This document shows positions 4,656-64,000 of a stretch of 64,000 bases of DNA, in pieces. The translations under genes were made by a program, and so were the position numbers. Origin of the DNA: Flaviramulus basaltis (lineage in GTDB: Bacteria > Bacteroidota > Bacteroidia > Flavobacteriales > Flavobacteriaceae). The notes below the pieces were generated by a model, which was not told the DNA's origin, made no database searches, and was given only the letters and a program-made list of their open reading frames with translations. Position 1 is the first letter of the stretch. The number at the start of each line of letters is the position of its first letter. The stretch spans positions 62,001 to 126,000 of the forward strand of contig NZ_FPKV01000002.1 of assembly GCF_900114265.1 (NCBI RefSeq), written 5' to 3'.

Positions 4656-5549
4656 TTAATAGTCACTAGCTTTTGAATAATCCTGAGGTATCTCCATTCC
4701 TTTAGGAATGATGGAAGATGGTATGAAGTGAACACTAACAGAATCCATTAAACCTAAGCCTAATAGTGTAGATGCACTACCCACAGTATCGCTATTACTT
4801 TTATAAACTGCAATTTCTAAAAAATTACCCGAATTAAAAACTACCAATTTTCTACCTTCATCGTGTCGTTTATTTTCAGGAATTTCAAAGTTTACAATAT
4901 CACTGTATTTTTGATGTATTTTTTTAAACGTATAGTTACGTGCAGAAATTTCAAAATTACGTCCTTTTTGTATGGCTTCAAAAAAGTTACGCTTAATATT
5001 AGTTACTACATTTCCGTAATTATCAATGTATATAATACTGCCAATAATTTGAGTTTTATCATCATTTACATATGGCACTATGTTTTTTATTGGTTTTATT
5101 TCTGGTATGTTTTTACCAATTACTTCCAATGTACCACCACGAGCAATATGGCAAGCTACTTTTACAAACACATCCAATACAGGAAAACTGGTTTGTATTT
5201 TATCGTGGATATTAATTTCAACAATTTTTTCTGGAGCAATTTCAGAGCAAATCATACTCATAATTCCATTATTTGCACAAATAAAATAATGATCATCTAA
5301 TTTAACAGCAATATGTTTATTTTCTGCATTTATTTCAGAATCTATACCAATAATATGAATAGTACCTTTTGGAAAACTACTATAGGCATTTTGAATAATA
5401 TATGCTGCTTCAGGAATATTAAAAGGCGATACTAAATGTGAGATATCAACAATTCGAACATCAGGTAGTTCACTGTGAATAGCACCTTTAGTTGCACCAG
5501 CAAAGTAATCTTTTTCACCAAAATCGGTGGTTAATGTTATTATCGCCAT
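4656..5549 (-). CDS. SAM hydroxide adenosyltransferase (DUF62 family)
   Basis: 297 residues from the ATG at 5549. An upstream in-frame TTG at 5555 is less likely, since relatives begin at MAIITLTTDFG. This is the S-adenosyl-L-methionine hydroxide adenosyltransferase family, which splits SAM to adenosine and methionine using water and is related to fluorinases and chlorinases. The N-terminal motif TTDFGEKDYFAG and the later FICANNGIMSMI and IDNYGNVVTNI are family signatures. It lacks a signal peptide and is cytosolic. It is divergent from phoH, and the 144-bp gap between them must hold both promoters. Confidence 0.88.
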   Translation of the reverse strand: MAIITLTTDFGEKDYFAGATKGAIHSELPDVRIVDISHLVSPFNIPEAAYIIQNAYSSFPKGTIHIIGIDSEINAENKHIAVKLDDHYFICANNGIMSMICSEIAPEKIVEINIHDKIQTSFPVLDVFVKVACHIARGGTLEVIGKNIPEIKPIKNIVPYVNDDKTQIIGSIIYIDNYGNVVTNIKRNFFEAIQKGRNFEISARNYTFKKIHQKYSDIVNFEIPENKRHDEGRKLVVFNSGNFLEIAVYKSNSDTVGSASTLLGLGLMDSVSVHFIPSSIIPKGMEIPQDYSKASDY

Positions 5550-63287: not shown

Positions 63288-63422
63288 TTAATGTGCATAA
63301 CGCTTAGAACCTTTCCAAATGTAGTTATTTGAAGTGTGAAAATCTATAATTCGATTATTAGTAAATAAATTTTCTTGAACTATACTATTTAAACGTCTTG
63401 ATATTTTATTGATTGAGTTCAT
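63288..63422 (-). CDS. Mini-gene C, 44-residue basic protein of unknown family
   Basis: 44 residues from ATG to TAA. The end NYIWKGSKRYAH has the same Trp-to-KRY layout as the two 28-residue neighbours. The sequence before the start (ATCAATCAATTT, then CAATCAAAAA) is shared with that of mini-gene A, which supports common descent. Net charge is positive, with no signal peptide or membrane segment. I recognise no family. It lies 68 bases upstream of exbD. Confidence 0.6.
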   Translation of the reverse strand: MNSINKISRRLNSIVQENLFTNNRIIDFHTSNNYIWKGSKRYAH

Positions 63423-63466
63423 TTTTTGATTGAATAAAAATTGATTGATGAAAGTTGGTTGGTTTT

Positions 63467-63496
63467 AAAAGACGTTACTTATCTGTAACGTCTTTT
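63467..63496 (-). terminator. Inverted repeat enclosing the mini-gene A stop codon
   Basis: AAAAGACGTTAC and GTAACGTCTTTT form a perfect 12-bp stem; the 6-base loop AGATAA contains the stop codon. A short T run follows on the minus strand, so it may terminate transcription. The matching site after mini-gene B has lost the second arm. Confidence 0.65.
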
Positions 63497-63565
63497 GCTA
63501 TTCCATTCTTTACTTTTTGAACCGTTGAAAGTTCCAGTTAATTGATTGTTGTTTAAAGTTCTCAT
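63479..63565 (-). CDS. Mini-gene A, 28-residue basic peptide
   Basis: 28 residues. The first 12 (MRTLNNNQLTGT) and the last five (KRRYR) are identical to mini-gene B, 23 of 28 overall. It is rich in Asn, Lys and Arg, with a single Trp. Four of the DNA differences from B are silent third-position or Leu changes, which suggests the peptide is translated and conserved. The stop codon is in the loop of a 12-bp hairpin. No known family. Confidence 0.7.
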   Translation of the reverse strand: MRTLNNNQLTGTFNGSKSKEWNSKRRYR

Positions 63566-63620
63566 GATTTTTGATTGATTTAAATTGATTGATGAAAAAT
63601 TTTATTTAATAAGTTAATAC

Positions 63621-63707
63621 TTATCTGTAACGTCTTTTACAGTTCCACTGGTTACTTTTTGTACCATTTAAAGTTCCTGTTAATTGATTGTTGTTTAGAG
63701 TTCTCAT
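63621..63707 (-). CDS. Mini-gene B, 28-residue basic peptide
   Basis: 28 residues and first of the array in the direction of transcription. It shares the N-terminal dozen and C-terminal KRRYR with mini-gene A; differences are F13L, S16T, K19N, E20Q and S23C, all mild. The Cys at residue 23 could allow a disulfide-linked dimer. A longer in-frame ATG at 63803 would add 32 hydrophobic residues without similarity to A, so the short start is preferred. No known family. Confidence 0.7.
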   Translation of the reverse strand: MRTLNNNQLTGTLNGTKSNQWNCKRRYR

Positions 63708-64000
63708 AATTGTTTTGTTTTTGATTAATTGATTTATAATAGATAGACGACCATAAATTAAAAATGTTACAGTACTATGTATAACAAAGTAATAAATTAA
63801 CAAATTTTAACTATTTTTAGTAGAGTAGTAGCTATTTAATCGTATAATTTAAGTAGGAGTTTAAGTTTTAGGAATGATTATTGTTAAACCCATACTAAAT
63901 ATTGAATAGTCATTAGGTGTATTTTCAGATAATAAAATATCTTTGAAACATCTAAGTTATAATTAAACGGATTAAATATATAAGATTGATGAAAACTTAT
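63708..64000. other. Right-edge region with possible partial gene
   Basis: Apart from the leader of mini-gene B (related CAATTAATCAAAAA near 63715-63736), no complete gene is seen. On the minus strand, a frame ending at 63861 reads SENTPNDYSIFSMGLTII, which looks like the end of an outer-membrane barrel, but it is closed upstream by a stop at 63957. A second frame is open to the window edge until 63884. This may be a broken gene end or chance. Confidence 0.3.

Follow-up and report, generated by a model that had tools for sequence, protein, structure and literature searches.

A tandem array of 28-residue protein genes in Flaviramulus basaltis and its probable place in an envelope-stress regulon

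What are the three very short open reading frames (ORFs) that stand in a row upstream of an exbD-like gene in Flaviramulus basaltis, and what would control their expression? The window analysed here, a stretch of 64,000 nucleotides (nt) of contig NZ_FPKV01000002.1 (assembly GCF_900114265.1, positions 62,001 to 126,000), carries them on its minus strand as gene B (63621..63707), gene A (63479..63565) and gene C (63288..63422), each running from an ATG to a stop codon. B and A encode peptides of 28 amino acids, MRTLNNNQLTGTLNGTKSNQWNCKRRYR and MRTLNNNQLTGTFNGSKSKEWNSKRRYR respectively, and C, the terminal member of the array, encodes one of 44. A preliminary description of this DNA had proposed a small duplicating protein family with a common 5' leader and had recognised no known family for it. 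Our analysis supported this proposal and suggested that the array is one operon, probably an output of an envelope-stress regulon that supplies small basic proteins in amplified dose.

Coding status and distribution of the peptides

The three frames, the identity of 23 of the 28 residues (82%) between peptides A and B, the gaps of 55 and 56 bases between the genes and the likeness of the tail of C (W-K-G-S-K-R-Y-A-H) to that of A and B (W-N-x-K-R-R-Y-R) were all reproduced. The gaps, on the minus strand, hold the leader of gene A with its CAATCAA repeats (63566..63620) and a spacer plus the leader of gene C, with repeats of the CAATCAA type (63423..63478). Genes A and B sit in a direct repeat of 110 nt with 83% identity, its units being 142 nt apart, and they differ by six silent changes (16.75 sites) and five amino-acid changes (67.25 sites).

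Relatives of the 28-residue peptides (28-mers), the existence of which the preliminary description had treated as decisive for coding, were present in 30 of the 149 related genomes searched (E<=1e-3), every one belonging to the same family as judged from the order of the genomes in the set, and no stop codon was found inside the matches better than E 0.08 in these 149 genomes. A genome collection contained 274 stretches encoding a 28-mer relative; the best 79 of those loci were retained, most of them titled Algibacter, Lacinutrix, Flavivirga, Wocania, Hyunsoonleella, Mangrovimonas, Winogradskyella, Aquimarina or other Flavobacteriaceae, and two titled only 'Bacteroidia bacterium'. An order-wide sample gave a 28-mer in at least 10 of 395 genomes, again all in the same family, a lower bound since at most 21 first-look candidates were scored among the matches listed. 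A mobile or viral origin was also considered, but viral contigs contained no relative, and plasmids and phages gave no match by tblastn.

We collected 189 distinct 28-mer genes, counting identical nucleotide sequences once and accepting a frame when it had 9 or more of 12 key residues (including W21, R25 and R26), not because it was open. None of them had an internal stop and 173 ended exactly at codon 29. The ratio of nonsynonymous to synonymous differences (pN/pS) was 0.20 for 65 disjoint pairs of 28-mers, with 112, 103 and 306 changes at the first, second and third codon positions, 0.23 for 78 tandem 28-mer pairs and 0.29 for 17 disjoint pairs of the C family, so that the substitution test proposed in the preliminary description came out in favour of silent-biased change. 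The length was fixed at 28 residues with conservation reaching the first one; R2, T3, L4, N7, N22 and K24 were kept at 90% or more, and the tail W-N-x-K-R-R-[YF]-R, for which the search rule partly selects, was nearly invariant. W21, R25 and R26 were invariant, which is partly built in because frames were picked by key residues, a rule that also lets frameshifted copies escape. Peptide set A1 comprised 41 of 49 distinct peptides, and set A2 the window with 39 of 49 references. Recurrence in many genomes, fixed length, absence of internal stops and silent-biased change together put the array far beyond chance, and on these comparisons the 28-mers and C are real genes under selection as proteins. 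A special role of the stop codon was not adopted: TGA closed 0 of the 189 genes and 16 of 318 long ORFs (Fisher p 0.003, TAG against TGA), a weak result from non-independent counts.

None of A, B and C matched a family of Pfam, NCBIfam, PHROGs or PADLOC, in agreement with the preliminary description, and a profile of the 28-mers gave two matches among the PDB sequences, only at E 5, so that no sequence relation of the 28-mers was found in Pfam, NCBIfam or the PDB sequences. One C3-type peptide reached E 0.011 with DUF2860, below the family cut-off. The strings MRTLNNNQ, MRTLNSNQ, MRTLDSNQ and MRTLNTNQ were absent from the open PubMed Central (PMC) literature; published ribosome profiles of marine biofilm isolates, with Flavobacteriaceae frames among them (PMC11683478, known to us in part), may contain data on the 28-mers or C. 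A common origin of the 28-mers and C was not established, the profile comparison giving a probability of 1.1% and E 0.046 over the tail only.

Promoter, operator and candidate regulators

Upstream of gene B we found a promoter of the extracytoplasmic function (ECF) sigma type (63744..63771, minus strand), with -35 TGTAAC, a spacer of 16 and -10 CGTCTA, the -10 box ending 36 nt 5' of the ATG. It is followed outwards by a palindromic operator, TACTTTGTTATACATAGTACT (63771..63791, minus strand), of PadR type by comparison, and by a direct repeat of TGTTAA-like half-sites with a 10-bp period, aGTTAA-N4-TGTTAA (63797..63812, minus strand). These elements were tallied in 121 arrays, cut to 111 distinct ones by identical local sequence, against shuffles permuting two-base blocks, not exact dinucleotides. 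Of the 111 arrays, 101 had GTAAC-N16-CGTC no more than 260 nt 5' of the first copy (0 of 2220 shuffles), 88 had the palindrome (12 of 2220) and 90 had TGTTAA-N4-TGTTAA with at most one mismatch (16 of 2220). In every one of the 87 arrays having both, the palindrome core was exactly 3 nt from GTAAC. The ECF element was found inside only 1 of 81 inter-copy gaps, implying that the copies of an array share a single promoter. The TGTTAA-type repeat could be a response-regulator box, which we mention as an idea only.

TGTAAC-N16-CGTC was searched for in the whole genome of F. basaltis, where it gave 10 sites, compared with 3 for the backward control. Seven of the ten stood 27-52 nt before an accepted gene, these being the array, an ECF sigma factor, Pmp3, DUF4870 and DUF456 (Pfam assignments), an ankyrin-like repeat protein (by eye) and a protein of 84 residues that has a hydrophobic end and matches nothing in Pfam; the eighth precedes an uncounted 28-residue frame and two precede none. 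The sigma operon also contains two DUF4252 genes and an anti-sigma-like frame of 161 residues without a Pfam match. Among the 30 ECF sigma loci read (matches occurred in 35 of 60 genomes), 26 carried the promoter element upstream, compared with 1 of 1500 shuffles. The matching promoter at the sigma factor's own operon suggests, at the level of promoter comparison, that the array belongs to the regulon of the ECF-sigma/DUF4252 operon. Leaders of the ATCAATCA type were also observed before the Pmp3, 84-residue and DUF4870 genes of the same genome (L275, L276 and L279), which share the ECF promoter, so the leader may be regulon-wide.

A comparable class of promoters, SM6, has been described in the transcriptome of Flavobacterium psychrophilum, with a CGT-type -10 box and an ECF sigma/anti-sigma pair among its targets; which of seven ECF factors acts there was left open (PMC9723704, consulted in part). 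It lends independent support to a CGT-type class of ECF promoters in flavobacteria. The present element, TGTAAC-N16-CGTC, likewise stands both at the array and at an ECF sigma gene. In contrast to the array, the SM6 targets presented in the sections of that paper used here include type IX secretion system components, Band-7 proteins and the RNA Rfp11, and no small-protein array is named in them. Rfp11 itself, a putative regulatory RNA with an SM6 promoter, might hide similar small frames.

The operator of the array is two positions off a site just before the DUF4870-PadR-PspC-DUF2807 operon of the same genome. Of the 30 loci read, 27 had a similar palindrome in the 1450 nt before padR, against 13 of 600 shuffles (matches in 48 of 60 genomes), and the padR operons contained PadR, PspC, LiaI-LiaF-TM, Toastrack and DUF2807 according to Pfam. 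Independent support for regarding PadR beside PspC and Toastrack as an envelope-stress module is available (PMC11237479, consulted in part), and in our genomes the palindrome upstream of such HAAS-PadR/PspC/Toastrack systems resembles that of the array; no small-peptide targets are described in the sections of PMC11237479 used here, the PadR site at the array being a candidate. The match of F. basaltis to the HAAS model was below the Pfam cut-off. The array appears to share its operator with the PadR-PspC-Toastrack operon, and PadR is the likely ligand of the palindrome as far as site comparison can tell. Two further palindromes, of the form CTTTG-N5-CAAAG, were noticed in the same genome (L119:3939-3959 and 4905-4925; C19:970938 and 971904), where they border the genes of an HTH_34 winged-helix regulator and of a membrane protein.

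Leaders, terminal genes and other occupants of the promoter slot

The 111 arrays had one copy in 49 cases, two in 50, three in 8, four in 1 and five in 3, and a different small frame usually comes after the last 28-mer. Among the 93 arrays with a strict promoter, 53 terminal frames had the C pattern (38-48 residues, W, then KR or ER plus an aromatic residue near the end), 7 were acidic peptides of 22 residues, 5 were of a MKTxRNxxKR type of 44 residues and 28 fell into none of these classes, which are set by pattern, many of the 28 being visibly C-like or C2-like. The CAATCAA-type leader before the ATG, which the preliminary description had attributed to all three genes, is a real feature and not a universal one: of 185 distinct 28-mer leaders, 95 had CAATCAA in the 60 nt upstream of the gene, compared with 3 of 415 ORFs that were 150 residues or longer, a somewhat weak control because these ORFs were taken from the first in-frame ATG and some starts are wrong.

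The stop codon of gene A lies in the loop of a 12-bp hairpin, AAAAGACGTTAC-AGATAA-GTAACGTCTTTT (63467..63496, minus strand, -14 kcal/mol). Such a hairpin, with at least 10 of 12 pairs, was present at 36 of the 98 last copies (of 111) that stop exactly at codon 29 and at 2 of 76 other copies; being rare except at last copies, it seems to belong to the junction with the terminal gene. Eighteen distinct hairpins had on average 11.1 of 12 positions paired, more than in any of 2000 arm swaps (mean 10.6, maximum 10.9), and both-sided changes were observed at some pairs. We infer that the hairpin acts as a partial terminator or uncoupler. At one locus (L067:8789-8848, plus strand) a 19-residue version of the peptide without the middle (MRTLNSTKSYQWNSKRRFR) stands directly before a normal copy, and a 113-residue, secreted-looking frame comes after that copy.

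The operator plus -35 box, allowing at most three mismatches, occurred in 25 genomes out of 89, and the backward control gave nothing among the matches listed. Fourteen sites were away from known 28-mer arrays and all were inspected. Eight of them were followed by two to four tandem peptides of 36-38 residues with ends like QWAQYRNFNR, in three cases preceded by another frame of 38-40 residues; one by two C-like 43-residue peptides ending VWNSKRRFSY; one by a 31-mer, the -10 box there being AGTC; and four by larger proteins, one in a PadR operon and three without an ECF -10 box. The tandem peptides of 36-38 residues (L125-L132; genomes G026, G037, G025, G032 and G018) are of the MKATITKTATESKTGQYFS...KRAQWAQYRNFNR type and apparently form a separate family, while the extra frame (MKTIYPHQ.., METLPQYLLRPKIYF..) was seen at L127:3001-3124 (plus strand, position calculated from offsets), L130 and L132. 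The 36-38-mers, 43-mers and 31-mer at these sites imply that different peptides with aromatic and basic tails fill the same place. We tentatively suggest from this comparison that the conserved entity could be the regulon slot and not one family, namely stress-driven arrays of interchangeable tiny proteins that share mainly an aromatic, Arg-rich C-terminal tail, would be abundant, would coat the inner membrane or ribosomes, would be dosed by copy number and would have been overlooked at 22-44 residues.

Possible activity of the peptides

In the mechanism that we propose, PadR would block the -35 region in unstressed cells and the anti-sigma factor would hold the ECF factor, both holds being released upon membrane stress. 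The whole operon would then be transcribed as a single mRNA, with each cistron started from its A-rich CAAUCAA-type leader; tandem duplication would raise the dose of the 28-mer, and the hairpin over the stop of the last 28-mer would lower or uncouple expression of the terminal cistron. The 28-mers would be peripheral proteins of the cytoplasm and would bind an anionic surface through their W-N-x-K-R-R-[YF]-R tail. Judged from the genome comparison, the regulatory part of this explanation is well supported; the biochemical part is what we infer from the peptides and their company. Binding of an anionic surface by the tail, with the stressed inner membrane as the most probable target, is possible, short of probable. 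The inner membrane is favoured because most of the promoter-sharing genes of the same genome code for membrane proteins and because Trp, Arg and aromatic residues abound in the tail; the net charge was +5 to +7 in 183 of 192 peptides. The hydrophobic membrane-spanning peptide typical of type I toxins was not seen, the columns of 170 distinct 28-mers being mostly polar or basic by eye.

The same tail could serve a different partner, and it is a doubtful though reasonable alternative that the target of the peptides is RNA or the ribosome, the Trp and Arg-rich tail being an RNA-binding motif, and that they adjust translation or shield ribosomes during envelope stress. The near invariance of the tail, the charge and the lack of a hydrophobic stretch by eye would fit, the repeated CAATCAA leader element could be the RNA target, and 28-mers also precede quite different genes; however, a candidate RNA partner is lacking, about half of the copies have no leader element, and the membrane proteins that prevail among the promoter-sharing genes point elsewhere. 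An improbable alternative is that each array works as a leader peptide or attenuator, translation of the 28-mer up to the stop in the loop controlling read-through into C, exbD or other genes. Twenty-eight residues would fit within the ribosomal exit tunnel, the hairpin covaries across the stop of the last copy, and 28-mers without an ECF element stand directly before several other genes. Attenuation would have no need of repeated copies, whereas arrays have one to five; the hairpin is missing from 62 of the 98 last copies; selection spans the peptide from its first residues; and no large downstream gene is common to the 33 loci, out of 41, at which a simple pattern found arrays for the neighbour survey, so that the single short ORF before a fixed gene expected of a leader peptide was not what we found. 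In the window the neighbour 3' of the array is an ExbD/TolR-family gene (Pfam PF02472; 62665..63219, minus strand), and the preliminary description had considered its regulation. When ORFs of 80 residues or more were considered, ExbD came next after the array in just 11 of the 33 loci, which lends this no support as a general role; a short exbD-like frame follows the array in at least one more locus (L075).

Some antimicrobial peptides have similar cationic, Trp/Arg-rich tails. That the 28-mers are precursors of a secreted or antimicrobial peptide is nevertheless very unlikely, and the secreted peptide considered in the preliminary description finds little room here, since by eye there is neither a signal peptide, nor a double-glycine leader, nor a hydrophobic stretch. 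The fixed length with conservation up to the first residue also argues against a precursor, and no exporter or modification gene was recognised by eye among the 14 largest clusters of neighbours, grouped by similarity. The conserved leader motif, the hairpin and the shortness of the units would suit a non-coding RNA or a chance repeat with incidental frames, a reading that is hardly credible in view of the low pN/pS, the 189 genes free of stops and the third-position bias.

Several observations weigh against the envelope-stress explanation or narrow it. Operon expression and regulator binding are deduced from genome comparison, and the array itself is known from its sequence; the evidence for a membrane target consists of regulon company and composition, and the structure predicted for C, two helices, has low confidence (predicted local distance difference test 69, predicted template-modelling score 0.31). 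The 111 arrays are the loci nearest to the peptide of the window and the promoter frequency holds for that sample, in which the exact ECF element is missing from 10 arrays; of 90 same-family genomes, 60 had no 28-mer at E<=1e-3, and the C2-type terminal peptides of 22 residues are acidic and without the W tail. By eye, the padR operon has a housekeeping-type TATATTTG box after the palindrome and no ECF element, so that PadR and the ECF sigma factor would be linked at the arrays only. A similar palindrome was also present upstream of the regulator of an HTH_34 operon in 22 of 23 loci (7 of 460 shuffles; three loci without an anchor are omitted from this tally), and thus the assignment to PadR is not unique. 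Finally, several 28-mers without an ECF element directly precede other genes, which by eye resemble those of an ABC ATPase (L083 and L102), a histidine kinase (L099), a hydrolase (L071) and an RND adaptor (L085 and L173). This points either to a role extending to other stress or efflux operons or to a leader role.

At L173 and L085, palindromes resembling TGTTCGnnAAnGAACA and a TGGCAC-N5-TTGCT box, clear in L173, were observed 5' of the 28-mers. They resemble a sigma-54 promoter region and suggest such control of an efflux operon starting with 28-mers. Elsewhere in the window, a scan with Rfam at gathering thresholds gave RNase P as its sole match (bacterial class A RNA, RF00010; 25802-26109, plus strand).

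TimP, SpoVM and TnaC are stress-related bacterial small proteins, and the array has in common with them very short, overlooked genes and regulated expression; unlike them, it consists of tandem copies of the same 28-residue protein, with no hydrophobic helix by eye. It is an unnamed small-protein family inside a known kind of stress regulon, and what is unusual is the tandem dosage and the exchangeable peptides. The finding adds to the Flavobacteriaceae a protein family of fewer than 30 residues with strong selection, a defined promoter and two candidate regulators, and it indicates that a scan for the promoter of a regulon, in place of one for long frames, can reveal tandem micro-genes. If it is true that unrelated peptides with the same tail fill the slot, the tail is likely to be the function and the search for a target narrows. 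The predictions concerning the sigma factor, the PadR operator, the hairpin and the tandem dose are directly testable in culturable marine flavobacteria.
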